Shown here: positions 9,177 to 28,681 of the stretch, in pieces
Position numbering within the stretch: the stretch's first letter is position 1
Layout: the number at the start of each line of letters is the position of its first letter
IMG/VR virus record: IMGVR_UViG_3300043787_000182
Coordinates: 1-33,149 of that record
Length of the DNA stretch: 33,149 bases
Strand: one strand, 5' to 3'
DNA from: a virus
Notes under the pieces: model-generated
The model's database searches: none
Seen by the model: only the letters and a program-made list of their open reading frames with translations
Told to the model about the DNA's origin: nothing
Made by a program: the position numbers and the translations under genes

Positions 9177-9710
9177 ATGAAAAAAATTATTAGAACCGCT
9201 TTGTATGAGAAAAAATTCGGTACAAAAGTCGTGCAAGATAACGGGAAGGTCTTCAAACGTTGCTCGGAGTGTAGGGAGTACATCTTGGAGAAGGAATTCA
9301 CAGCAAACCGTAAGGGAAAGTTGGGCACACACTCCCGATGCCCTCGTTGTGCGAGGAATAATTCGTACCGAAGGAAGTTTGGGGTAGGGGTGGACTATTT
9401 TGAATTCATGTTAAAAGCCCAAAATAACCGATGTGCGCTGTGTCCAAAGGTGTTTGAAAGTCCTGGGTATGGGAATAGTCTTGATTCTAAAGACAAACCA
9501 GTCCTTGATCATGACCATATAACCAACATTCCTCGGGCGGTGTTGTGTGTGAAATGTAACATTGCCCTTGGAATAGTTGAAGGAGATCGGGAATGGTTGT
9601 TGGATGCTCTGCATTATGTAAAACGCCATGAACAATTGGGATATCAGTTCGATAGTTGGAAGCAAGAGTTCCCAGGAATTACCCGAGTTGCGGAAAACCT
9701 TCAACTGTGA
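9177..9710 (+). CDS. endonuclease VII-like HNH nuclease
   Basis: 177-residue protein with a GAAAGGAT site before ATG 9177. Cys29, Cys32, Cys55 and Cys58 form an N-terminal zinc finger. The nuclease core follows: CALC (86-89), DHDH (111-114) and CVKC (124-127), the zinc-plus-ββα-metal arrangement of recombination endonuclease VII. His and Asp of DHDH are the expected catalytic residues. Known relatives resolve branched DNA or cut during packaging; others are mobile homing nucleases. The gene is markedly more AT-rich than its neighbours and has its own promoter, which hints at separate acquisition. It is the first gene of the rightward run. Confidence 0.85.
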   Translation: MKKIIRTALYEKKFGTKVVQDNGKVFKRCSECREYILEKEFTANRKGKLGTHSRCPRCARNNSYRRKFGVGVDYFEFMLKAQNNRCALCPKVFESPGYGNSLDSKDKPVLDHDHITNIPRAVLCVKCNIALGIVEGDREWLLDALHYVKRHEQLGYQFDSWKQEFPGITRVAENLQL

Positions 9711-11311: not shown

Positions 11312-11778
11312 CCCTTTCACTTCCGACACCAGCCACCCCCGGTTCCCCGGCGGGTACCAACCTTGTAGCCTCCGTAGTTGCGGAGTTGAATCAAATCTAC
11401 AACACCCAAAACGCCACCCTTGTTGCTGCGTATAAAGCAGCGGTTGCTGCGTCCTCCCAGACGACTCCGGCCCCTGCCCCACCCACCCTCACCATCGTAA
11501 ACTCCACCCTCGCCGCACAACTTGAAACCTCGGCGGAGGCGGGGATTTTCCCAACGGTGGCCCAATGGCAGGCGGTACTTAGTACTTACGTATACCCCGT
11601 CATCCCTATCGTCCCCCTCGCCCCCTACACCATCGGCACCCAGCAATCCAACGGTCTTTACGCTCTCACAGCCTCAGGCCCGTGGCCCTCCGATGGGCAA
11701 CAGTTTGTCGTGAACGGGCAGGATTACGTCGCGGTATGGGCGTCCCCGTTCGGTCCCGTCTACGCTGCTGCGATATGA
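11308..11778 (+). CDS. 156-residue Ala/Pro/Thr-rich protein, possible structural
   Basis: TTG start at 11308 with AGGAGA seven bases upstream, overlapping the previous stop. The N-terminal 60 residues contain an Ala-rich helix (LNQIYNTQNATLVAAYKAAV) and a Pro-rich linker. The remainder is beta-rich and ends with GQDYVAVWASPFGPVYAAAI. It resembles low-complexity virion-associated proteins, but no family is assigned. Stop and next start overlap (ATGA). Confidence 0.55.
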   Translation: MTLSLPTPATPGSPAGTNLVASVVAELNQIYNTQNATLVAAYKAAVAASSQTTPAPAPPTLTIVNSTLAAQLETSAEAGIFPTVAQWQAVLSTYVYPVIPIVPLAPYTIGTQQSNGLYALTASGPWPSDGQQFVVNGQDYVAVWASPFGPVYAAAI

Positions 11779-12332
11779 AACTCCTTCTCCTAGCCCTTCT
11801 GAGTGCCGTCCTTACCTTTGGGCAGACTGCGGCTCCTACCCCTTCCACGACTACTTCATCCCCGGGGATAGCATCCCCGACGTCGTGGTCGGGATTCGTG
11901 GAGGGCGGCGCTCAATCAGGGAAGAACATCACCTCCGGGATTGGCATCGCCACTACCGTTGCTGCCAACACACAGATCTTCCTCGAACTAACCTCTACCA
12001 CCCAATCCGGTGTGGCAGCAGTGACCGGCGTGATGTTCGGTGTAAAAACCGACCTTCCCACCGTGCGGTCGATTACCCCATTCACAATCGTGGGTTACGG
12101 GGGTTCGATATCCTCCCTATCGAAACTCACCTCCCTCCCTTCCTCCGTAACCGGGGTAAACGCCGCATCGGTCACAGCCGTCGGTACGGCTGTGGGATTC
12201 GCCCAACAGTATGCGGCGGGTGGGGAGTATAAACTTAAGAACGGTCTTACCATCGGCGTCGGGGCAGAGGTGAATAAATCCTCCCCCGCTTGGAAAGGTT
12301 ATCCGTTTGTGTTCGTGGGGAAGGAGTTTTAA
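11775..12332 (+). CDS. exported outer-membrane-like protein
   Basis: 185 residues from ATG 11775 (ATGA overlap). Residues 1-18 (MKLLLLALLSAVLTFGQT) form a signal peptide, followed by a Thr/Ser/Pro linker. The rest alternates short amphipathic beta strands and Gly-rich turns (IGIATTVAANTQIFLELTST, LKNGLTIGVGAEVNKSS). The last residues VFVGKEF end in Phe, the usual outer-membrane-barrel end recognised by the BAM system. It therefore looks like a small host-derived or phage-coded beta-barrel, possibly involved in surface exclusion. No phage family recognised. Confidence 0.6.
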   Translation: MKLLLLALLSAVLTFGQTAAPTPSTTTSSPGIASPTSWSGFVEGGAQSGKNITSGIGIATTVAANTQIFLELTSTTQSGVAAVTGVMFGVKTDLPTVRSITPFTIVGYGGSISSLSKLTSLPSSVTGVNAASVTAVGTAVGFAQQYAAGGEYKLKNGLTIGVGAEVNKSSPAWKGYPFVFVGKEF

Positions 12333-12335
12333 TCA

Positions 12336-12650
12336 ATGTCCCAGCGCTGGATTCAATTCGACGCTAACTCCCTTCTCAAACTCCTCACCCACTACACCAT
12401 GGACCATGAGGACCAGATCCCCCTTGACGCCGAACTCCGCTTCGCTGGGGTATCCAACTACGTCACTCGATGGATTGTACTTGATGTGGAAGCAAAGGAA
12501 TGGGATGGTATGGCCCCTGACCCTCGTACCGGGGAGCTGCCCTTCATTCACGTTCGTTTTGAAGGTGGAAAGGTGATGTCCTGGACCCAACTCCCCTCCT
12601 CCCCCCATACTCGCGACTCCTGGAAGGAAGCCGTTGAAAGTCCTACGTAG
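12336..12650 (+). CDS. 104-residue protein, paralogue of the 11093 gene
   Basis: Starts MSQRWIQFDANSLLKLLTHY with AAGGAG about ten bases upstream. The motif of a beta start, helix LLKLLTHYTMDHEDQIPLDA, beta strands (RWIVLDVEAKEW) and FIHVRFEGGKVM matches the layout of the 72-residue protein at 11093. The spacing of helix and IP(I/L)DA matches closely. A shared small fold is likely; function unknown. Confidence 0.65.
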   Translation: MSQRWIQFDANSLLKLLTHYTMDHEDQIPLDAELRFAGVSNYVTRWIVLDVEAKEWDGMAPDPRTGELPFIHVRFEGGKVMSWTQLPSSPHTRDSWKEAVESPT

Positions 12651-12879: not shown

Positions 12880-13157
12880 ATGTATTTAAAAAAGTAGCCA
12901 AAAAAGTCGGCACCTCCCTACTTCACTTTGCTTACAATGAAGATCGTGCAGTGGCATCCCTCGCGGGTGCTCCCCCAGACTGGACCATCTCTGGGGAATC
13001 AGCAAAGCATAAAGTACTTCACCCACTCGCTGACACCCTCGATGCCATTCACTTCGCTGGAGACCCTCACCACGCCCAGGACGCTGAACTCCACGACACC
13101 GCTCTCCAAGCAGCGGATTACGAACTAACAGCGGAAGAAAAAGCTGAGGGGAAATGA
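12876..13157 (+). CDS. 93-residue hypothetical protein
   Basis: GTG start at 12876 with AAGGA upstream. It begins MNVFKKVAKKVGTSLLHFAY and is followed by a His/Asp-rich middle (DTLDAIHFAGDPHHAQDAEL) and an acidic helical end. The basic first helix is amphipathic. It couples into the kinase start by a short overlap (ATGA), so it belongs to the same transcript. Family unknown. Confidence 0.55.
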   Translation: MNVFKKVAKKVGTSLLHFAYNEDRAVASLAGAPPDWTISGESAKHKVLHPLADTLDAIHFAGDPHHAQDAELHDTALQAADYELTAEEKAEGK

Positions 13158-13975
13158 CTCCCACCATTGCTATCCTCGGTGACATATTTATCGATAACTA
13201 CTGGATTGGAACAGCCACTCGCATCTCCCCAGAAGCACCGATCCCTGTAGTAGCCGTTAACCGAGTAGAATCCTTCAACGGAGGAGCGGGTAACGTTATT
13301 GCAAACCTACGAGCCCTTGGTGGGATCACCAAATACCCCAACGCTCTTTACCCTATAGTATGTCCTACCAAACATCGTTTAATAGTTGATGGCCACCAAC
13401 TCGCCCGATGGGATGAACATGATTATTCTAAAGAACTAAACCTAGCATGGATACGAGAGTTACGAGGAGTGGATGGGGTAATCATCTCTGACTACGGTAA
13501 AGGAGCCATCACCTACGAGGTAATCGAAGCTGTCGCCTCCTTAAACCTTCCCATTTTCATCGACTCCAAACGCTCCCCTCGGGATTTTGACATCATCCTC
13601 AACCCCACCTTCTTCCCAAACGAGAAAGAATACCTAACCCACCTTCACGACTACAGCCTTCAACCAAAAGTTGTTTGCAAACGTGGCCCCCAAGGAATGG
13701 AGTATCATGAATTCGGAAAAATCCTTCACTCCTACCCCGCCTACGCCCGCAAGGTTACTAGCGTTTGTGGGGCTGGTGATACTGTTATCACTGCTTATGC
13801 TTGGAGTTTCCTATCTGGGGACCAAGATCCCTTACTTGTATCAAGTATTGCAGCTGCCATAGCGGTGGAAAAACCCTACACATCCGTCGTAACCCTTGAA
13901 GAACTCACCCGCCGTCGTAATGAAATATGGAGAGAGGAATCCACTTACTATGCCTGTCCAACAGGAAGGGCCTGA
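13154..13975 (+). CDS. PfkB-family kinase, HldE/RfaE domain I-like (heptose-phosphate kinase type)
   Basis: 273-residue carbohydrate kinase coupled to the upstream gene by ATGA. The N-terminal segment (GDIFIDNYW..., TRISPEAPIPVV) and GGAGNVIANLRALG match the HldE kinase half, which phosphorylates D-glycero-D-manno-heptose 7-phosphate at C1. SDYGKG (112-117) and GAGDT (206-210, with the catalytic Asp) are present. The usual VTGAGDT reads VCGAGDT here. It is about 40-50 residues shorter than the HldE kinase half, mostly missing between the GGAGN block and the sugar-binding middle, so the substrate may differ. A matching nucleotidyltransferase lies at 15586; a related ribokinase-type activity cannot be excluded. 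Confidence 0.75.
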   Translation: MTPTIAILGDIFIDNYWIGTATRISPEAPIPVVAVNRVESFNGGAGNVIANLRALGGITKYPNALYPIVCPTKHRLIVDGHQLARWDEHDYSKELNLAWIRELRGVDGVIISDYGKGAITYEVIEAVASLNLPIFIDSKRSPRDFDIILNPTFFPNEKEYLTHLHDYSLQPKVVCKRGPQGMEYHEFGKILHSYPAYARKVTSVCGAGDTVITAYAWSFLSGDQDPLLVSSIAAAIAVEKPYTSVVTLEELTRRRNEIWREESTYYACPTGRA

Positions 13976-14375
13976 GACCCGAGCCCACGTCGCCAAGCTT
14001 TGGGGGATGGAGGAATGGTTGGTAAATAATGAAGAATACTGCGCCAAACTCCTTTGGATTACCCCCGGATTCCAATGCTCCCTCCATTACCATCCAATTA
14101 AACACGAGACTTTCGTTGCTCTTGATGGTCTCATCCGGGTGGAATACCACGACGGGGGTAAGCACTGTGAGACTCTCCTCTCAGGAAAACGACGGGACAC
14201 ACTCACTATCCCTCCGAACACTCCACATCGGTTTTGGGCGTTGGGGTTTGAGGGTGGGTTACTTCTGGAAATCTCCACCACTCACTCCGACGAGGATGTA
14301 GTTCGTATTGAATCTAGTATGGAACAAGCCAATCATGAACCTTTACTTGGTATAAGAATGAACGAAGATGACTAA
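13950..14375 (+). CDS. cupin sugar isomerase-like protein
   Basis: 141-residue protein starting MPVQQEGPETRAHVAKLWGM, overlapping the kinase end by 26 bases. It shows the single-cupin pattern of mannose-6-phosphate/lyxose isomerase-like proteins: WGMEEWLVNNEEYCAKLLWI, SLHYHPIKHET (metal-binding His/His/Glu), IPPNTPHRFWAL (third His) and EISTTHSDEDVVRI near the end. These enzymes interconvert sugars or sugar phosphates. Position directly after the kinase suggests a role in supplying or trimming the sugar. The exact substrate is unknown. Confidence 0.7.
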   Translation: MPVQQEGPETRAHVAKLWGMEEWLVNNEEYCAKLLWITPGFQCSLHYHPIKHETFVALDGLIRVEYHDGGKHCETLLSGKRRDTLTIPPNTPHRFWALGFEGGLLLEISTTHSDEDVVRIESSMEQANHEPLLGIRMNEDD

Positions 14376-14748
14376 AGAAGAAATTTTATTCTTAAAAAAT
14401 TACCGTCCATTGAATTGGAAGCCGGAATGTTCTAGCGTAAAATGTTACATTAACAAACAACATCCTTCAACATGCAATCCCTGGAGATCTGGAAATAACA
14501 AATTTTCTGAATCCACCCCTTCTAAAATATGCACAACAAGTTGGATTAGAAAACGAGAAGTAATTTGTGAATTTTTTGAAACTCTTCGTTATTATATTAA
14601 ATCTATCATAAAACCACGTGTTTTTAAAGAACCTTATACCCACTGGAACTCCACTCGTTGGCAGTCCTTTATTCAAGCTTGTCGTCATTATTTTGGAATT
14701 CGTATAGCTTGGTATGATTTTTGGCATGGCCCTAATGAACGACATTGA
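14368..14748 (+). CDS. AT-rich orphan gene, 126 residues
   Basis: Starts at ATG 14368 inside the end of the cupin gene and stops inside the start region of the terminase piece. The protein (MTKEEILFLKNYRPLNWKPE...) has scattered Cys (CSSVKCYIN, STCNPW, ICTTSW), a basic/aromatic middle and a Trp/His-rich C-terminus (HYFGIRIAWYDFWHGPNERH). Codons are far more A/T-ending than in neighbours, typical of a recently acquired gene. It is unlike any family I know. Confidence 0.55.
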   Translation: MTKEEILFLKNYRPLNWKPECSSVKCYINKQHPSTCNPWRSGNNKFSESTPSKICTTSWIRKREVICEFFETLRYYIKSIIKPRVFKEPYTHWNSTRWQSFIQACRHYFGIRIAWYDFWHGPNERH

Positions 14749-15589
14749 TCTAAATGCTGACACAATTGCCTACCTTGCTACCCTTCCTTCTGCGACACGT
14801 AAGAAGCTTTATGAGGAACTTGGCCGCCGAGAATGGGATCGTTGTGCGTCAGATCCCCTCTACTGGCTCGATCCCTCCCGTCATGCCATCCCTTACGTCC
14901 ACACCCGAGACCCCAAGCAACTCTACACCTGCCGACTCTGCGAAGGACCCGAATTGGCGTCCCTTACATATACCTTTGATTCCCGCATCCGGCACTTGGA
15001 AATATCCCACGATATGCGACACGATGACTATGATTTCGATAAGTACTTCGACAGCTTACCAACCACTCGTCCCTTCACTGTTTTCCCCTACATTGAACCG
15101 ATCGTAAACACGTGGTTGAGGGAAAAAATCATCTTCATAGAAAAATCCCGCGACATGATGGTAACGTGGCTGATTGTTACCCTCTACACCTGGGATACCC
15201 TCTTCCATCGTAACCGAGAAAATGTCTTCCAATCTGATGATTCTGCTAAAGCCTACGACCTTGTGGAACGTGCTCATTTCATTTGGGAAAACCAGCCTGC
15301 ATTTCTTCGGAATGTACATCCCGCTACTATTTCTGCGGGTGTATCTCGATCAGGTGTGCTTAAAGTTCCTTCACTTAAATCAGTTATCATGGGGTTTCCC
15401 CAGGGTCCCGATCAAATCCGACAGTTTCATCCATCAGGTGTTTTTCAGGATGAAGCAGCTTTTCAAATCGAAGCAGAGAAAGCATTTACAGCTGTGAAAC
15501 CGGCAATTCAAGCTGGTGGACGTTTTACAGCTGTTAGTTCCGCCAACCCTGGTTGGTTTACAAAATGTGTGAGAGACGTAGTAGAATGA
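14735..15589 (+). CDS. terL: terminase large subunit, ATPase half (split gene)
   Basis: 284 residues from ATG 14735; ATG 14726 and 14714 are alternative starts. The ATPase core shows a Walker-A-like KSRDMMVTW (137-145), a Walker B segment ending in GVFQDEAAF (235-243), and the coupling motif SSANPGW (268-274). The protein stops just after that motif, where an intact large terminase would continue into the nuclease domain. The nuclease half follows as a separate gene at 16673. An N-terminal insert (CRLC...HLEISH, residues 66-92) looks like a C2H2 zinc finger. The stop overlaps the next start (ATGA). Powers DNA translocation into the prohead. Confidence 0.85.
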   Translation: MNDIDLNADTIAYLATLPSATRKKLYEELGRREWDRCASDPLYWLDPSRHAIPYVHTRDPKQLYTCRLCEGPELASLTYTFDSRIRHLEISHDMRHDDYDFDKYFDSLPTTRPFTVFPYIEPIVNTWLREKIIFIEKSRDMMVTWLIVTLYTWDTLFHRNRENVFQSDDSAKAYDLVERAHFIWENQPAFLRNVHPATISAGVSRSGVLKVPSLKSVIMGFPQGPDQIRQFHPSGVFQDEAAFQIEAEKAFTAVKPAIQAGGRFTAVSSANPGWFTKCVRDVVE

Positions 15590-16098
15590 CCACCGAACGC
15601 CACACTAACTTCACCTATATCTCCCAAAGAGATGAACTTCCATGGCTCCGCCCTGAGGAGTTCCGAGACCTCGACCTTCCCCATCCCGTCGTCCTCATCA
15701 ACGGGGCCTTCGATATTCTCCACTCCGGCCATTGGAAACTAATCACCCGAGCCCGACGAAAGGCCGCCACTCTCATCTGCGCCCTCGATTCCGACGATAG
15801 AGTAGCCCGAAAAGACCCCAACCGTCCCATCCAAACCTTCATCGAACGAGCAACCATGCTTGGCTACACCCCTATTGATTACCTTTGTGAGATCGAAACC
15901 GACCGTGACATGCTCAATCTCATACGATCAACCCTTCCGGACTTACGAGTGCAAGGTCCTGAGTACAAACTGGTGGATAGTAAATACCCCTGGGTCCAAA
16001 AGTTTCACGTATCCGGTTTGGGGCGCACTGGAGCCCGGATCGGAATGAGCACCACGAAGATAATCAACCGTATCCTGGATCGTTATGCCCGGTCCTGA
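15586..16098 (+). CDS. nucleotidyltransferase, HldE/RfaE domain II-like (heptose-1-phosphate type)
   Basis: 170 residues from ATG 15586, which overlaps the terminase stop. The Rossmann-type cytidylyltransferase signatures are clear: NGAFDILHSGHW with HSGH at 46-49 (the HxGH catalytic motif), DSDDRVARKDPNRPI, and GMSTTKIINRI at 153-163. This corresponds to the ADP-transferring half of HldE, which joins heptose 1-phosphate to a nucleotide. About 35 extra N-terminal residues precede the core. Paired with the kinase at 13154 it would complete the two-step activation, although the base donor (ATP or CTP) cannot be read from the sequence. Confidence 0.8.
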   Translation: MTTERHTNFTYISQRDELPWLRPEEFRDLDLPHPVVLINGAFDILHSGHWKLITRARRKAATLICALDSDDRVARKDPNRPIQTFIERATMLGYTPIDYLCEIETDRDMLNLIRSTLPDLRVQGPEYKLVDSKYPWVQKFHVSGLGRTGARIGMSTTKIINRILDRYARS

Positions 16099-16309
16099 GG
16101 ATTGGTTCGATCGAGAGGTGGCAGGGTTTGAACCCACCTACTCCGTGGAAGACTTCCCCGGCTACGATCTCGAAGTCCTGGAGTGCCTGACCTGCGGTGC
16201 GGAGGTGTGTGGGATTCGTAAAACCCCTCCAGAGGAAATGGCATGCCCAAGATGTGGAACGACGGGAATGAAGATTCTTCGAGTAATTCGGAAGATTTAT
16301 CTTCAGTAA
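16085..16309 (+). CDS. zinc-ribbon protein, 74 residues
   Basis: Starts at ATG 16085 within the end of the nucleotidyltransferase. Residues 34-57 contain CLTCGAEVCG...CPRCG, a four-Cys zinc ribbon with an extra Cys. The acidic N-terminal half (FDREVAGFEPTYSVEDFPGY) and basic C-terminal end (MKILRVIRKIYLQ) suggest a compact adaptor. It lies inside the DNA that separates the two terminase halves. Confidence 0.65.
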   Translation: MPGPEDWFDREVAGFEPTYSVEDFPGYDLEVLECLTCGAEVCGIRKTPPEEMACPRCGTTGMKILRVIRKIYLQ

Positions 16310-16470
16310 CTTACCAAACAGATAAATTTATCCATGCCTGCGGTATGGCATCTTCCATCACTGAAGCTAAACGTCTTCGTCTTGCAGGGGCTATATCTAT
16401 TGAAATTCACGGCATTATGACTAAAGTATTCACTCCTTACATTACCTTTATCTTTCCTTTCTGTTCCTGA
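16243..16470 (+). CDS. S4-like RNA-binding small protein
   Basis: 75 residues from ATG 16243 (AGAGGAA seven bases upstream), overlapping the zinc-ribbon gene by 67 bases. Residues about 29-58 (DKFIHACGMASSITEAKRLR, then LAGAISIEIHG) match the S4 pattern of a helix with SxxEAxRLxxxGAIxI, used by ribosomal and tRNA-related proteins to bind RNA. A hydrophobic C-terminal end (YITFIFPFCS) follows. Codon use shifts to A/T-ending, unlike the nucleotidyltransferase. The S4 assignment is by eye on a short motif. Confidence 0.45.
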   Translation: MPKMWNDGNEDSSSNSEDLSSVTYQTDKFIHACGMASSITEAKRLRLAGAISIEIHGIMTKVFTPYITFIFPFCS

Positions 16471-16709
16471 TGAAAATTTTTCCCGGATCTGTAGCCATTC
16501 GTTTAATGGATGTTCATGGAGTGGACTTTGACACTCTTCAATATTGGTTACTTCAAGATGGATGGGCGTTGGATGTTATTGGATTTCTTTCCGCTGGTGA
16601 AGCTAATCCTAACTTCCCGCCATATCGTTTGTACCAACTTCTCTCTACATCTTCCTGTCAGGTAGCAGTGCTATGCCCTCCGAAATCATCCACGAACAAC
16701 TTGGATTAA
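16470..16709 (+). CDS. 79-residue hypothetical protein
   Basis: Starts at ATG 16470 on the previous stop (TGATG). It begins MKIFPGSVAIRLMDVHGVDF and continues through a helical middle (LQYWLLQDGWALDVIGFLSAGEAN) and Pro-rich end. The last 12 residues are read from DNA that also encodes the start of the terminase nuclease half, in another frame. That may be a read-through remnant of the insertion boundary. No family recognised. AT-rich codons. Confidence 0.5.
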   Translation: MKIFPGSVAIRLMDVHGVDFDTLQYWLLQDGWALDVIGFLSAGEANPNFPPYRLYQLLSTSSCQVAVLCPPKSSTNNLD

Positions 16710-17524
16710 AAATCCGTCGTAACGCCAATAATCGATTCGTGGTTTGCGAACTTGACTACTTCGCCGACCCTGCCAAACGCTCCCCTGAATGGGCTGCCGA
16801 AGCTCGTTCAGGAATGTCCGCTGCCGCTTGGGCGAAGGAATACCTCCGAGACGCCACAGCCATGTATGGCCAGCGGGTATTCCCGGAAATCGCCGCTCAT
16901 CGGGATAAGATTGTCATAAACCCTCCCTTCCGAGACTTTGGCCCCCAGGGTGCGTATTGGGGTGGGTTTGATTTTGGTTCCCGCAACCCCTCCGCATTCA
17001 TCGTCTACACCCTTGAAGACGGAGTCCTCTACGCGATCTGGGAACTCTACGAACCCTGTAAAACCATCCCCGACCTAGCTGCAAAGATCATCTCCTGCCC
17101 TTACTACAACCACCTCCGTTACGTTGCCTGCGACCCCACAATCGTTAACCAAAAAACCCGAACCAACAAATACGGTGCCCTCGTCACCATCAGTGACCTT
17201 CTCGGGGAATACGGTATAAAACGCCTCATCCCCGGTCACACGGATGAAACGGTCTGGTTACAAACCATGCGTCGTCACTGGGCAGACCCATCCGATCCGA
17301 CCTTCCGAATCCTTGATTCCTGCCCCAACCTCATCCACGAATTCGAGAACGCGGTATTTGCCTCCCAAAACGAGAAACAAGTCCTAACCGAAACCTACCG
17401 AGAACAAATCGAAGACGTGCACAACCACGCTCTCGATGCGACGAAGTACCTCATGAATTCCAAACCCACCGTCAACTTTCGTCGTTTCCGTGACCCTCAA
17501 ATGGCTCGTCGTTGGTTGCACTGA
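16673..17524 (+). CDS. terL: terminase large subunit, nuclease half (split gene)
   Basis: 283 residues from ATG 16673; a TAA in the same frame at 16610 blocks any longer start and the ribosome-binding site is weak. It begins with the sequence that normally follows SSANPGW in an intact protein: KIRRNANNRFVVCELDYFAD, then DPAKRSPEWAAEARSGM. The RNase H-like nuclease is complete: GGFDFGSRNPSAF (first Asp), RYVACDPT (second Asp) and IEDVHNHALDATKYL (third acidic cluster). Together with the ATPase half at 14735 it would reconstitute the packaging motor. The two halves are separated by 1083 bases. Confidence 0.85.
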   Translation: MPSEIIHEQLGLKIRRNANNRFVVCELDYFADPAKRSPEWAAEARSGMSAAAWAKEYLRDATAMYGQRVFPEIAAHRDKIVINPPFRDFGPQGAYWGGFDFGSRNPSAFIVYTLEDGVLYAIWELYEPCKTIPDLAAKIISCPYYNHLRYVACDPTIVNQKTRTNKYGALVTISDLLGEYGIKRLIPGHTDETVWLQTMRRHWADPSDPTFRILDSCPNLIHEFENAVFASQNEKQVLTETYREQIEDVHNHALDATKYLMNSKPTVNFRRFRDPQMARRWLH

Positions 17525-18932: not shown

Positions 18933-21524
18933 ATGGCGCAATCTTTCTTTGAGAGCACTCCCGCTGAGTTCGTCACAGGCCAAGACCCCTCCCTTGCCCA
19001 TCGCATAGACGAAACCGAAGAACAACGGCAAAAACGAGCATTCGATGAGAAAGTCCGTGAATACGTCATCGCTTGGCGTAACCAACTTCGGATGTATCGG
19101 TATGAAAAACTTGGCGTCTGGAATGAATGTTGGCAGCTCTACCGAGGGCAGGAAGATTGGTCGGATAAAGAAGACTGGCAATCGAAGATCGTCCTTCCCA
19201 AATCCTTTTCCTCCGTCAAACAAGCCACCAACGTAATCAAACGTCTCCTTTCCGCTTCGAAAAAACCCTGGCAAATCGAATCCGAAAACCCCAACGATCA
19301 AGTCAACAACATCCGTACGGAACAAATGACCTACCTCTCTCGGGTCTTCATGGAGAAAGCCAACTTCCTCTACGAATTCTCCGAAGCCCTGGAATGTTCC
19401 TTCATCATGGGATGTGGTATCGTCAAGCTCTGGTGGGGGTTGGTACCGCGAATAATTACGAAAGTAGAGACTCGTATGGTCCCGTTGGGACTCGCGGGTG
19501 TCACTACCGCCAACCCCAACCAGCAATATGTTAACGCCCCAGCAGATCCTAACTCATACTCCCCAACCGGAAGCATCCCCAACGACCGGATCTCCGACAA
19601 CGCCAACATCGGCCCGAACCATCCGCCGGACTCCACAGACTCACGAGGTGGTCCAACACCTCCAGGGGTTGACGTGTCTCGTCGGGGTGTCGGGACCGGG
19701 CCTATCGCAGGTACCCCCGCAGCGGGGCTTGGGGGCGGTGGGCAAGCCAACCAACCTCCTCCCGAACAACAACCCGGTGGAGCCGGTGTCCCGGTCGAAC
19801 CTCCAGCCAGTACGCGGACCCAACAACCGTTAGGTCAGCTTCCCAAGGCCCTTCAACAACAAGACGCTCGAACCTACCCCACGATGCTCGGTAACGAATT
19901 CATCTCCCCGATGAATCTCCCAGGTGGGCAGTCGGGCGGTGGGTTGGGTGTTCCGTCCCTCCCTGGCCAACCCCCTACCCTCCAGGCTCAGAAGCAACTG
20001 GTTCGGGAAGAAACCCTTGAAGGTCGATTGTTCCTCCGCTCCGTAGACCCTTACAACTTCTACTGGCTCCCCGGCTCCAAAATGAACCGATGGACCGGCA
20101 CCATCGAGGAGATCGAACTTCCGAAATGGGAACTCATGCAGATGGCACAGGAAGGGGTGTTTGATCCGGAGTTGGTAAAACAAATCCAACCGATGAAAAT
20201 CGAGGAACAAACCAAACAATCCTGGCTTCGTTTCGGGGAAATGCCCCGTACCACCAACGGCCCTACCGCTGATACCGGAGTAATCAAACTAACAGAATAC
20301 TACGGCCCTATCGTACTGGATGGGGAAGTTAAAGAACGCTGGGGACATGTACTCATTGCCAACGATACCATCGTCCTCATCAACGGTAAGAATCAATTCT
20401 GGCATCGTAAGCCCCCCTACATTGGTTTCTCCCCAGTGGTACTACCCTTCCGTACGGAGGGTGTGGGGTTGGTGGAAAACGTCCGTCAAATCGATAAAGC
20501 CTTAAACCGTCTCGCCAACATGTCAGTGGATACTCTCATGTTTCGGTTGATGCCGTTTTTTGAAATCACCACTGACGCATTTGAGAACCCTGAAGACTTC
20601 GACACCGGCCTCACCCCTGGTAAACTCTTCCGTCGTAACGCTCAATACCCAACCCTCGAAGGTATCAAACCAATCGAAACCCTCGACATTGGCCCGGGTG
20701 CGACCCAACTCTCCTCGGAGTTAAACGTCGCCCACCAGGAAGGGTCTCTCATCTCCCAGCTCCAACAATCCATCCCCCGCTACCGAGGATCTCAAACCGC
20801 CACGGAAACCCAACTCATGCAGGACAACCAACAGTCCTTCTTTGGTTCCATGGCATCGGATATTGAATCCCAATTCATCGACCCGATGATTATGATGGCG
20901 ATTGATCTCATTATGCAATTCATTGACACCGCTAACGATCCTCGGGTGGCTTCCATCCTTGGGCTTGAAGCCGCCACTCTCGCTGGGATGACCCGTGAGG
21001 AAATCATGGAGATGATTCAAGGGGATTATAAAGTACGAGTGACGGGTGTGACCGGTCAGCTTGAAAAAGCTGAGATGCTTCAAAACCTTGTCCAATTCAT
21101 GAACCTCATCGGGCAAAACCCGCAGGCATGGTTACCTTACATCAACCAAAACAAACTTCTCCAACGTATCCTCGAAGCGTTCCGCCCGGCGATACACGAC
21201 GTGGAGGAAATCATCGCCGATCCTGAAACCGTCCAAGCCAACCAGCAGGCGATGCTTGGTCAGGAAATCACCCCCGATCTCCTTAACCTCATTCCCCAAC
21301 TCGTTCGGCTCAACAACGAACGCCAATCCCGGCAATTCGACCAAGCCCAACTCAACGCTGAACACGCTGCTGCCATCCATCAGCAGAACCACGAACACAC
21401 CATTGACAACATCAATACCGCTCTTGGGATCGCTTCCCATCACCTAGCCGTTAAAACCGCCGAACAAACTCCACAATCCGCCGGGGTGTCCTCGTCCCCG
21501 ACTCAATCAGGACAAGGAAATTAA
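18933..21524 (+). CDS. portal protein, large podovirus-type
   Basis: 863 residues from ATG 18933, three bases after the previous stop. N-terminal helical region (REYVIAWRNQLRMYRYEKLG, QSKIVLPKSFSSVKQATNVI), a clip/wing beta domain around residues 355-500 (LEGRLFLRSVDPYNFYWLPG, GVIKLTEYYGPIVLDGEVKE), and a long C-terminal helical half with LNRLANMSVDTLMF and ATETQLMQDNQQSFFGSM. The order and the C-terminal Gln/Asn-rich tail match portals of short-tailed phages. An unusual feature is a Pro/Gly/Asn-rich low-complexity insertion from about residue 190 to 350. Assembles as a dodecameric ring at one capsid vertex. Confidence 0.8.
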   Translation: MAQSFFESTPAEFVTGQDPSLAHRIDETEEQRQKRAFDEKVREYVIAWRNQLRMYRYEKLGVWNECWQLYRGQEDWSDKEDWQSKIVLPKSFSSVKQATNVIKRLLSASKKPWQIESENPNDQVNNIRTEQMTYLSRVFMEKANFLYEFSEALECSFIMGCGIVKLWWGLVPRIITKVETRMVPLGLAGVTTANPNQQYVNAPADPNSYSPTGSIPNDRISDNANIGPNHPPDSTDSRGGPTPPGVDVSRRGVGTGPIAGTPAAGLGGGGQANQPPPEQQPGGAGVPVEPPASTRTQQPLGQLPKALQQQDARTYPTMLGNEFISPMNLPGGQSGGGLGVPSLPGQPPTLQAQKQLVREETLEGRLFLRSVDPYNFYWLPGSKMNRWTGTIEEIELPKWELMQMAQEGVFDPELVKQIQPMKIEEQTKQSWLRFGEMPRTTNGPTADTGVIKLTEYYGPIVLDGEVKERWGHVLIANDTIVLINGKNQFWHRKPPYIGFSPVVLPFRTEGVGLVENVRQIDKALNRLANMSVDTLMFRLMPFFEITTDAFENPEDFDTGLTPGKLFRRNAQYPTLEGIKPIETLDIGPGATQLSSELNVAHQEGSLISQLQQSIPRYRGSQTATETQLMQDNQQSFFGSMASDIESQFIDPMIMMAIDLIMQFIDTANDPRVASILGLEAATLAGMTREEIMEMIQGDYKVRVTGVTGQLEKAEMLQNLVQFMNLIGQNPQAWLPYINQNKLLQRILEAFRPAIHDVEEIIADPETVQANQQAMLGQEITPDLLNLIPQLVRLNNERQSRQFDQAQLNAEHAAAIHQQNHEHTIDNINTALGIASHHLAVKTAEQTPQSAGVSSSPTQSGQGN

Positions 21525-25485: not shown

Positions 25486-25980
25486 ATGCCAGCTCCCGCT
25501 AAAACTCCCCCCGTTCCTTCTCCGGAACCTACCCCCAAAAAAACATTCACTAACTGGTCGGCTTTTGAAAAAGCCAAGGTCCACCCCACCCGAATCGTCT
25601 GCGATGTAATCCGTATGCATCCTGCGGATGAGTCGTGTAAGACTCGTCTTCCATTATTCGCTGGACAGATGATCGATCACTTCCGAAAGGAACATGGAGG
25701 TGGGTTTCAGGTTCAAGTAAAACAATCCGATGCGAAGCCCTGGCCCGGTTGGAAAGAACTCGCTGACGCAGGTATGGAAGCGGTCGGGTTGAAGTGTGAG
25801 GTATGTGACCAGCAGGTTCAAATTTCCCCCCGTGATATCCTCAACCACCTCCGTCCCCATCAGGGAAAGTTCCGTGGTGCATATCAGAACTTCCGTGATA
25901 CCTTCTTCTTACAAATCCAATCCACCCCTGTAAACCCGCCTGAGGATGACGATGAATCCTTCTACTCCGACCAGCAGTAA
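25486..25980 (+). CDS. double C2H2 zinc-finger protein
   Basis: 164 residues from ATG 25486 with GAAAGGAT upstream. After a Pro-rich N-terminal stretch there are two Cys/His clusters. CKTRLPLFAGQMIDHFRKEH, near residue 52, has two His but a loosely spaced Cys. CEVCDQQVQISPRDILNHLR then PH, near residue 105, is a textbook C2H2 spacing. The C-terminus is acidic (PPEDDDESFYSDQQ). It overlaps the start of the glycosyltransferase fusion. A DNA- or protein-binding accessory protein is likely. Confidence 0.65.
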   Translation: MPAPAKTPPVPSPEPTPKKTFTNWSAFEKAKVHPTRIVCDVIRMHPADESCKTRLPLFAGQMIDHFRKEHGGGFQVQVKQSDAKPWPGWKELADAGMEAVGLKCEVCDQQVQISPRDILNHLRPHQGKFRGAYQNFRDTFFLQIQSTPVNPPEDDDESFYSDQQ

Positions 25981-27556
25981 GCATAACTCTGGAATCCTTC
26001 GTACCACTCAGATGTATAGTAACGTGCCGCCGTGGGTGAGGTTTCGCTCGGTGGGGTATCTCACCAACCGAGGGTTATCCTTTGGGATGGGAATGGATTT
26101 ATACCCCCGAAAAGCTATCGCTCCAGGGAAGTTTTCCCTCAACGTAGACCTGCTCCCAACCCAACAGAATTCTAACATCTCCGTCTGTGATGGAAGATTG
26201 GATATCTTTGAGGAAGGGGTATTTGACCACGTAGTGGTTGGTCCTTCTCTTGGATGGTGCCCAAATCCCCAGACCTTCCTGAAGGACATCGTCTCCAAAC
26301 TGAAAATGCGAGGACACCTTGTGGTGTTCATGCCGGAGAAAAATCCCCTCCCGAATGTTCATTTTCAATTCGCCCCACTCGCTCTGTTGGATCTAATCTC
26401 CAGTGTGGGGGCTTGGAAGATGAAGATGAATATCACCCGCGAGGGGGATACGTTGATTATCGTAAAGAAGATACCAGGAAAGCCTGGGACACTTGAACCC
26501 ACCCGTCCACGTGCCCCAAAAACAGCCTGTATCTGCCGATACGGAGCACTTGGGGATATGGTTCTAATCACCCCGGTCATTCACCGACTTGCGGAGGATG
26601 GGTATGAGGTGACGATGAACATCACCGAATACGCGGCACCCCTACTCGATAATAATCCCTACATCACCAACATCGTTCTTCAAGAACGAGACGCAATTCC
26701 GAATCAAGACCTTGGCCCCTACTGGGAAGAGTGGAAAGGGGATTATGATAAATACATCAACCTCTCCGAATCCATTGAAGGGCGGTTGTTAAAGGTGGAG
26801 AATCGTAAGGATTTCTACACTTCTCAGGAATGGCGATCCCGCACCTGCGGTAAGCAGAATTACCAAGACTGGACTATGGAGTTGTGTGGGTATCCAAACG
26901 TAAAAGGGGAGAAAGGGGAGTTATACTTCTCCCGGAATGAAATCCTTCAAGTTCGGAAGTTTCGAGAGGACATGAAAGGGAAGTTCGTAATCCTCTGGGG
27001 ATTGAATGGCTCCTCCCATCATAAAGTATACCCACTCCTCGCCCCGGTCGCGATTGATTTCCTTGAACGTCACCCAGACGCGATGATGGTACTCCTTGGT
27101 GCGGCGGAAGCGAAGAGGTATGAATTCGAGCACCCGCAAGTTCTTCCCACAGCAGGTAAATGGCCACTTCGTCAAACCCTCGCCACCATCGCTATGGGAT
27201 CGGATTTGGTGGTAGGTCCGGAGTCAATGGTAGTTAACATTGCTTCATGTTACGATGTACCGAAGATCGTATTCCTCTCCCACAGCTCCCCGGATAATCT
27301 TACCAAGTACTGGACCAACTGTGTAGCGTTGGAACCTGACCGGGAGATGGCTCCTTGCTACCCTTGCCATCAACTTCACTACTCTTTGGAATCCTGTCCG
27401 CAGGGCGGAATCATCAACGGGGAGACCCACACCCCAATCGCTGAAGGTCCCCGCTGTGCTATGGGGGCCATTAAAGGTGAACGGGTGTTGGCAGAGATGG
27501 ATCGAGTTTACGCCGCTTGGCTTGCAGCCCAGCAGGTACCCGTCATGGTAAAATAG
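25946..27556 (+). CDS. methyltransferase domain fused to GT9 (heptosyltransferase-type) glycosyltransferase
   Basis: 536 residues; ATG 25946, or ATG 25952 which has better spacing from GAGG. Residues about 30-175 form a class I SAM methyltransferase-like domain (GLSFGMGMDLYPRKAI, then VFDHVVVGPSLGWCPNPQTF and LKMRGHLVVFMP). Residues about 190-536 are a GT9 domain: CRYGALGDMVLITPVIHRLA is the diagnostic GD-containing N-terminal motif, and VVGPESMVVNIASCYDVPKI the sugar-nucleotide site. GT9 enzymes usually transfer heptose from ADP-heptose to LPS core. Together with the phage kinase and nucleotidyltransferase this suggests a phage-made sugar transfer, with methylation by the same polypeptide. 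The start overlaps the zinc-finger gene. Confidence 0.75.
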   Translation: MTMNPSTPTSSKHNSGILRTTQMYSNVPPWVRFRSVGYLTNRGLSFGMGMDLYPRKAIAPGKFSLNVDLLPTQQNSNISVCDGRLDIFEEGVFDHVVVGPSLGWCPNPQTFLKDIVSKLKMRGHLVVFMPEKNPLPNVHFQFAPLALLDLISSVGAWKMKMNITREGDTLIIVKKIPGKPGTLEPTRPRAPKTACICRYGALGDMVLITPVIHRLAEDGYEVTMNITEYAAPLLDNNPYITNIVLQERDAIPNQDLGPYWEEWKGDYDKYINLSESIEGRLLKVENRKDFYTSQEWRSRTCGKQNYQDWTMELCGYPNVKGEKGELYFSRNEILQVRKFREDMKGKFVILWGLNGSSHHKVYPLLAPVAIDFLERHPDAMMVLLGAAEAKRYEFEHPQVLPTAGKWPLRQTLATIAMGSDLVVGPESMVVNIASCYDVPKIVFLSHSSPDNLTKYWTNCVALEPDREMAPCYPCHQLHYSLESCPQGGIINGETHTPIAEGPRCAMGAIKGERVLAEMDRVYAAWLAAQQVPVMVK

Positions 27557-27749: not shown

Positions 27750-28157
27750 ATGCCGGAACCCACACATACTCAAGATCCTTCTACATTTTTATTCAGACTA
27801 GCCTGCGCTTTCGCCACCGCCGAAGGCGCTTTTGTTTCTGGAAGTCTCCCCAACACGGATAATAACCCCGGTGACCTTCGATTGGCCCCGTGGGTTACGA
27901 ATCCAACGGTGCGAGGAGGTTTCTGGCGTCCCACTACCCTCGCAGAGGGAATCGCGGGTTTGTATCATCAACTTGCGTTGGATATTGCCCGAGGGTATTC
28001 CTTACGAAAGTTAGTCTACACCTACGCCCCTCCGGGGGATCACAACAACTCTGAGAATTATCTCACCGAAACAGCCCGAAGGATGGGGATCGATCTCACG
28101 AAGGATATCGATACTCCGTTGTGGAACTTCCTAACCCCGCTGGAGAAGATACCTTGA
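27750..28157 (+). CDS. lysozyme/transglycosylase-like protein (NNPGDL family)
   Basis: 135 residues from ATG 27750. The catalytic-site region reads ATAEGAFVSGSLPNTDNNPG, the AEG...NNPGDL pattern of phage lysozyme-type cell-wall hydrolases; Glu25 is the expected catalytic residue. The conserved tail ALDIARGYSLRKLVYTYAPP then GDHNNSENYL and a final helix are present. There is no signal peptide. It lies between the glycosyltransferase and the TylF gene, so it could act in host lysis or in a virion-associated entry step. Confidence 0.7.
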   Translation: MPEPTHTQDPSTFLFRLACAFATAEGAFVSGSLPNTDNNPGDLRLAPWVTNPTVRGGFWRPTTLAEGIAGLYHQLALDIARGYSLRKLVYTYAPPGDHNNSENYLTETARRMGIDLTKDIDTPLWNFLTPLEKIP

Positions 28158-28681
28158 AGATTGATAAGATGGATAAAATCGTGGAGAAACTTCGTGAGGT
28201 GCCAGGGGATGTAGCGGAGTTTGGATGTTACGAAGGGGAAAACACCGAACATATGGCTCGGGCTTTTGGAACTCGTACGGTCTGGGCTTGGGATACTTTC
28301 GAAGGAATGCCGGATGATAGTTATATCGAAGAGTTGGATAATTCCGATCCCCCCGGGAAATGGGTTCCAGGTAAATCCCCACTTCCACATTTTGAACATT
28401 TAAACAAAGACCACGGGATGAATATCCATCCGGTGGTAGGGGTATTTTCCAAAACCATCCCCGCCTTCGAGCATCCTGAGGTACGATTTGCCTTCGTTCA
28501 CATTGACTGTGACCACTATCATGCATACCGGCGGGTGTTGGAATTTATCACCCCACGAATGTCCCCCGGAGGGATGGTTCGATTGGATGATTACGGTTGT
28601 TGTGCGGGGGCGAAGAAGGCCACGGATGAATGGTTGGCCACCACCGGGCATAAACTTATTGAGGATTTTATCTACTTCTAA
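28154..28681 (+). CDS. TylF-family O-methyltransferase
   Basis: 175 residues from TTG 28154, which overlaps the previous stop (TTGA) and has GGAGAAG seven bases upstream; GTG 28121 is the alternative. SAM site VPGDVAEFGCYEGENTEHMA (17-36), the TylF signature VWAWDTFEGMP (43-53), and the metal-binding acidic motif FVHIDCDHYH (114-123) with DDYGCC (145-150). TylF-type enzymes methylate sugar hydroxyls in glycan and antibiotic pathways. Proximity to the GT9-methyltransferase fusion suggests it decorates the same sugar. Confidence 0.75.
   Translation: MKIDKMDKIVEKLREVPGDVAEFGCYEGENTEHMARAFGTRTVWAWDTFEGMPDDSYIEELDNSDPPGKWVPGKSPLPHFEHLNKDHGMNIHPVVGVFSKTIPAFEHPEVRFAFVHIDCDHYHAYRRVLEFITPRMSPGGMVRLDDYGCCAGAKKATDEWLATTGHKLIEDFIYF

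Follow-up and report, generated by a model that had tools for sequence, protein, structure and literature searches.

What does a phage make with a sugar kinase, a cupin and a nucleotidyltransferase set around its terminase? The question is raised by the virus record IMGVR_UViG_3300043787_000182, whose 33,149 nucleotides (the window; G000 in our series) are about half of the genome of a podovirus-like phage from an uncultured lineage. The answer favored here, with a probability of roughly 0.6, is that the phage makes its own activated heptose from host sedoheptulose 7-phosphate, which a GT9 enzyme would transfer and methyltransferases would modify. The initial annotation had set a kinase, a cupin and a nucleotidyltransferase (NT) around the ATPase half of the large terminase subunit (TerL); the three lie where it put them, and TIGR02198, phrog_7851 and TIGR02199 match their families. 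The genes on which the argument turns are these (aa, amino acids):

13154-13975, + strand: HldA-like (HldE domain I) PfkB kinase, short viral form, 273 aa; assigned by profiles, fold and tree
13950-14375, + strand: metal-site cupin, proposed sedoheptulose-7-phosphate ketol-isomerase replacing GmhA; PF01050, phrog_7851 and ketol-isomerase matches
14714-15589, + strand: ATPase half of TerL, a gene of its own, with ATG 14735 as a possible start; matched by family profile to T4 gp17 ATPase 3ezk (2.8e-6)
15586-16098, + strand: HldC-like (HldE domain II) NT, 170 aa; assigned by TIGR02199, HSGH motif and fold
16673-17524, + strand: nuclease half of TerL, a gene of its own; family profile matches residues 258-418 of large terminase 5oe8; phrog_5653, 5e-9
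25946-27556, + strand: methyltransferase-like domain fused to a GT9 (heptosyltransferase-family) domain; profile-profile match
28121-28681, + strand: TylF-type O-methyltransferase (PF05711, 5.7e-16)

Kinase, nucleotidyltransferase and cupin

The canonical pathway comprises the GmhA isomerase, the HldE kinase, the GmhB phosphatase, the HldE nucleotidyltransferase and the HldD epimerase (PMC10221265). The window kinase matches TIGR02198 (rfaE_dom_I) at E 6e-44 and Pfam PfkB at 7e-9. Its closest solved structure by sequence profile is HldA, 4e84 (5e-39, 137.5 bits), with ribokinase far behind (4e-10, 42.7 bits); the AlphaFold2 model (predicted local distance difference test, pLDDT, 92) likewise finds HldA 4e84 as its best fold match (E 1e-23, against 1e-14 for ribokinase). 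The GAGD (D209) and NxxE (N156, E159) motifs are invariant in 12 relatives. The kinase tree separates the lineage with the split TerL (support 83), a second phage group that includes cyanophages (99) and a bacterial group that includes some phages (97); all three clades fall within the HldA/HldE family. The assignment to HldE domain I is thus borne out by profile, by solved structure in both sequence and fold, and by phylogeny; ribokinases and fructokinases, the groupings that would have spoken against it, are not where the protein falls. By sequence it would be a relative of HldA and HldE domain I, not a proven equivalog.

The NT matches TIGR02199 (rfaE_dom_II) at 1e-19 and carries the HxGH-type motif as HSGH. 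Its best solved match is HldC (5x9q/5xf2), by sequence (3e-18, 69.3 bits) and by the fold of a predicted model of moderate confidence (mean pLDDT 73). Glycerol-3-phosphate cytidylyltransferase scores below HldC (2e-8, 37.1 bits); a grouping with those enzymes was looked for and not seen. The HldE domain II assignment therefore stands as well. That kinase and NT are separate genes, a point raised in the initial annotation, is true here but ordinary: so they are in cyanophages, and separate HldA and HldC genes are found in Burkholderia and Neisseria (PMC10221265). Whether split (HldA/HldC) or fused (HldE), the bacterial enzymes belong to the same two families, with 4e84 and 5xf2 the nearest solved forms; they differ in that the viral kinase is shorter (an internal linker of 13-22 residues at one site, against 39-43 in bacterial HldA), that bacteria use GmhA where the phage has a cupin, and that the viral scores fall below the equivalog cut-offs. 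PHROG families of phage proteins match kinase, cupin and NT alike.

The cupin reading frame is open from TTG 13896; translation probably begins at ATG 13950, which follows a AGAGAGGA-like site. The protein matches phrog_7851 at 1e-23 and PF01050, the C-terminal domain of mannose-6-phosphate isomerase, barely above cut-off. Its best PDB matches are D-lyxose and D-lyxose/D-mannose ketol-isomerases (2y0o, 8e-9; 7nzo, 5e-8), and the His/His/Glu/His residues of the metal site (H48, H50, E55, H95) are invariant across 15 phage cupins. Fold and metal ligands are shared with these ketol-isomerases and with type II phosphomannose isomerase cupins; the phage forms differ in being single domains of ~120-140 aa tied to a heptose-type kinase. 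Conversion of mannose to fructose is the same C1-C2 aldose-ketose chemistry as the GmhA reaction.

The distribution of GmhA bears on the same point. Its SIS domain (PF13580) is not found in the window, nor is GmhA in 50 other virus records bearing the kinase. Within the lineage, several of whose contigs are near-copies of one another so that counts are not all independent, GmhA occurs only in G007 and G011 (TIGR00441, 7e-23 and 1e-35), both without cupin and NT; among contigs of at least 30 kb the mutual exclusion of cupin and GmhA gives a Fisher p of 0.045. In a collection of 50,697 phage records the kinase occurs in 35, the cupin in 35 and both in 31, many of them near-copies that by count amount to ~14 distinct phages. 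Four records have the kinase and no cupin; going by match spans, these kinases are as long as bacterial ones, and one of the four records is a piece of Salmonella chromosome. Because the cupin resembles ketol-isomerases, and because GmhA is present where the cupin is absent, the cupin probably stands in for GmhA and not for GmhB. The initial annotation was right that no GmhB-type phosphatase is in sight; its suggestion that the cupin might fill that gap is rejected on the same two grounds, the isomerase step being the better fit. A bolder proposal is that viral cupins are an unrecognized, non-orthologous sedoheptulose-7-phosphate isomerase in a GmhA-free heptose pathway, lodged in a lineage-wide two-polypeptide TerL with surface-sugar genes in the gap; in this full form we would put it at somewhat less than an even chance.

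Unrelated phages usually carry NT, kinase and cupin adjacent or close together, often together with a HAD phosphatase and with a short-chain dehydrogenase/reductase (SDR) that matches the ADP-heptose epimerase profile TIGR02197 at 4e-67. Of 56 loci in other phages, 40 have such an HldD-type epimerase-like SDR with the trio; along with the GT9 domain of the window, these SDRs lend further support to a heptose-type pathway. The closest described counterparts are the lipopolysaccharide (LPS)-type sugar clusters of cyanophages (P-SSM2, S-CAM1, S-CAM3, P-TIM68), which share the separate HldA-like kinase, the HldC-like NT and the same cupin family. There the trio forms a compact operon with a HAD phosphatase and an HldD-like epimerase, whereas in the window it is spread across the split TerL without either; the window's kinase also belongs to a separate clade.

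Annotation in the cyanophage clusters invites some correction. The 'phosphoheptose isomerase' of these phages was considered as a GmhA and rejected: it is a ~113-aa HAD protein (TIGR01689, 1e-8; EcbF-BcbF type phosphatase), not a SIS protein (L227:6713-7057, L228:6707-7030, L229:6707-7027, L230:6745-7083, L231:8961-9308). The annotation looks wrong, and these HAD proteins may fill the GmhB phosphatase step. Cyanophage cupins such as L227:7038-7394 carry the label 'cysteine dioxygenase' (PHROG 7851) or 'nucleotidyltransferase' but are members of the ketol-isomerase-like cupin family that accompanies the heptose kinase. In P-TIM68 a transketolase-like gene (L230:3320-4465) adjoins the heptose-type kinase; the starting sugar of the pathway, sedoheptulose 7-phosphate, is a product of transketolase.

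A probable user for the sugar, and other possible products

The initial annotation missed both the transferase and the methyltransferases. The C-terminal domain of the 25946-27556 protein aligns with GT9 enzymes that bacteria encode close to hldE (99.8% over 315 columns; negative control 0.4%), and D16 of its ALGD motif, the catalytic Asp of the GD motif, is invariant. Each of the five large contigs fetched has the methyltransferase-GT9 fusion, as do two more (G005, G006, G007, G011, G015, L014, L059), and in other phages GT9-like proteins adjoin the trio (98.1% and 94.4%). On this evidence the fusion is the likely user of the activated sugar. The window also encodes the TylF enzyme at 28121-28681; in relatives such enzymes sit inside the gap between the TerL genes, where an FkbM, TylF or class I methyltransferase is found in 34 of 39 contigs (examples confirmed by Pfam).

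The pathway proposed would run as follows. The cupin would do the job of GmhA on host sedoheptulose 7-phosphate; the kinase, to judge from its family, would phosphorylate C1; a phosphatase, presumably host GmhB, would remove the C7 phosphate; the HldC-like NT would join the product to a nucleotide, with ADP-heptose as the outcome most likely for its family. The GT9 domain would then transfer the activated heptose, and the methyltransferases would probably cap it. The acceptor might be host LPS, the change serving to block rival phages, a role proposed for similar clusters (PMC7824862), or it might be a virion protein, an alternative suggested by the place of the GT9 gene among structural genes.

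Several observations weigh against this account. The kinase reaches 150.4 of the 345 bits of the TIGR02198 equivalog cut-off and the NT 70.5 of the 181.5 bits for TIGR02199; the substrate may therefore not be the canonical heptose. The usual DTGP-type motif of GT9 enzymes is altered to GPES/GPET, and the window protein has no Pfam PF01075 hit, its relatives scoring 13-18 of 22 bits, below cut-off. Homologs of the HAD phosphatase and of the HldD-like epimerase were sought in the window, which is only part of its genome, and in five large lineage contigs, and none was found. The contrast between cupin and GmhA inside the lineage may be a single evolutionary event, and some phages outside it that lack the cupin lack GmhA too. 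Finally, one clade has the kinase but neither cupin nor NT: of the 31 contigs in which the stretch upstream of the ATPase half is available, 23 have cupin and NT together and eight lack both, and the six distinct kinases of those eight group as one supported clade.

The alternative that survives best uses the same genes for a different sugar. The product would be another nucleoside-diphosphate (NDP) sugar, a mannose-type hexose for example, for which no C7 phosphatase is needed; the cupin would be a hexose-phosphate isomerase, or would act on the NDP-sugar in the manner of an RmlC/FdtA-type epimerase. The identity of PF01050 as a mannose-6-phosphate isomerase domain, the two sub-equivalog scores and the failure to find in the lineage a phosphatase like that of other phages all suit it. 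The epimerase-like SDRs at 40 of 56 loci, the GT9 domain, the occurrence of GmhA where the cupin is absent and the wide margin by which HldA is the closest solved kinase do not, and we consider it unlikely, at about one chance in four.

A less probable alternative, to which we give little credence, is that the phage only boosts the host's supply of ADP-heptose, no new structure being made and the GT9 and methyltransferases having some other target. The missing phosphatase and epimerase would then mean that the host is Gram-negative and has the pathway itself, and one clade does keep the kinase alone. The conserved GT9-methyltransferase fusion and the methyltransferases in the gap point instead to a modified product.

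A terminase in two genes

Both functions of TerL, ATPase and RNase H-like nuclease, are encoded in the window, by two genes. What the initial annotation called the ATPase half does contain the ATPase domain, but it is not a fragment; it is a complete gene of a conserved two-gene TerL. Nor is the division local, a point that the initial annotation missed: in 39 of 39 contigs with both halves TerL is split, the ATPase and nuclease genes lying 392-3785 bases apart. The distant relatives L021 and L022 have both domains in one protein of 582-595 aa. In the ATPase half K144/R146/D147 and DE 246-247 are invariant; relatives of the nuclease half are up to 84% identical. Near the N-terminus of the ATPase half (residues 73-99) all 13 relatives keep an invariant Cys2-His2 set (C73 C76 H94 H99), which may be a zinc site that serves assembly with the nuclease half or with DNA.

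The cut falls in the linker between the domains. Across all sequences the end of the ATPase gene shifts by no more than a few residues, and the nuclease gene opens with a start of its own; the TGA stop of the window's ATPase gene overlaps the NT start as ATGA. Rfam finds no intron at the TerL junction, in the window as a whole or in seven loci, and a group I or II intron was rejected for this reason and because the stop and start that mark the domain boundary are conserved. From the common stop point, the ATGA overlap and the Rfam result we infer that the two genes yield two polypeptides. Herpesviruses offer a likeness in a large terminase gene (UL15/UL89) interrupted by unrelated genes (PMC6466031); it differs in being spliced, whereas here the halves are separate conserved genes. 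That TerL is one protein after all, joined by an unrecognized intron, an intein-like element or trans-splicing with the sugar genes as intron cargo, can draw on the herpesvirus introns, which hold two to five genes (PMC6466031), but is most improbable when no Rfam intron appears in window or relatives, stop and start are conserved at the domain boundary, the stop overlaps the next start codon and the gap varies widely in length and content.

The gap usually holds NT, sugar-type methyltransferases or both. Pair by pair, the identities of kinase, cupin and NT follow those of TerL (Mantel r 0.67-0.77; a value this high came up in 0 of 2000 permutations); the module is therefore passed down with the lineage. 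The kinase, too, keeps its place before the ATPase half in each of the 31 contigs that cover that stretch. On the account favored here TerL is permanently divided at gene level, and the gap is a fixed site for sugar genes. The gene order of the locus is shared by dozens of divergent contigs and therefore recurs far beyond chance.

Phage clusters with a PfkB kinase, a cupin isomerase, a HIGH nucleotidyltransferase, epimerases and glycosyltransferases have been described before (PMC7824862). As far as the open-access literature shows, the reading of the cupin as a substitute for GmhA, the TerL split throughout the lineage and carrying sugar genes, and the methyltransferase-GT9 fusion are new; no report of a TerL split into separate ATPase and nuclease genes was found in that literature, subscription papers being outside its coverage. 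If the account is right, phage heptose-type pathways reach beyond marine cyanophages into an uncultured lineage, a likely phage transferase for the sugar is in hand, and specific, testable roles can be proposed for the cupin often annotated 'cysteine dioxygenase' and the small HAD protein often annotated 'phosphoheptose isomerase'. A stably split TerL is also a natural test of whether ATPase and nuclease must be covalently linked. ADP-heptose is a bacterial signal to animal innate immunity, and one may ask whether phage infection changes that signal; an effect on innate-type signaling as the purpose of the genes, one of the possibilities raised in the initial annotation, drew no support from the analysis.

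Neighboring genes and the lineage

Five further genes fill out the locus:

12336-12650, + strand: conserved 104-aa protein, function unknown; encoded ahead of the kinase gene in nearly all relatives
14368-14748, + strand: open reading frame (ORF), function unknown, separating the cupin from the TerL ATPase gene; no counterpart found in relatives
16085-16309, + strand: small zinc-ribbon protein; sub-threshold Zn-ribbon matches; recurrent in the TerL gap
16243-16470, + strand: 75-aa protein with an S4-type look, judged by eye only
18933-21524, + strand: portal / head-tail connector (phrog_332, 2.5e-32); the next conserved module gene, order conserved

The 14368-14748 ORF qualifies the adjacency first described: the trio does flank the ATPase gene, but this extra, unconserved ORF intervenes between cupin and ATPase. 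It has no homolog at the related loci compared; a Pfam match to the NgoBV restriction enzyme is weak and sub-threshold (E 0.002). The zinc-ribbon protein has homologs in L004, L008 and other relatives. The 75-aa protein has no Pfam match; tblastn finds it in L005 (51%), there also just upstream of the nuclease half.

Adaptor and ligase genes make the lineage appear related to SU10/phiEco32-like podoviruses. Among the 50,697 phage records the nuclease half has no match at E 1e-5, and the ATPase half and portal have distant matches only; with cultured relatives so distant or unmatched, no host can be assigned. The bacterial genomes searched held no relative of the nuclease half, and there is thus no sign of a prophage.

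Elsewhere in the window, 11682-12332 encodes a 216-aa protein, possibly secreted and outer-membrane-like, with no Pfam match, and 9177-9710 a recombination endonuclease VII-like gene (PF02945, 7e-12). The 66-68 kb contigs G005 and G007 (L232-L235, L240-L243) carry genes for a dATP/dGTP diphosphohydrolase (MazZ-like family), uracil-DNA glycosylase, amidoligases and a family A DNA polymerase. In G005, TerL and portal lie at opposite ends of the contig, which suggests a circularly permuted complete genome.

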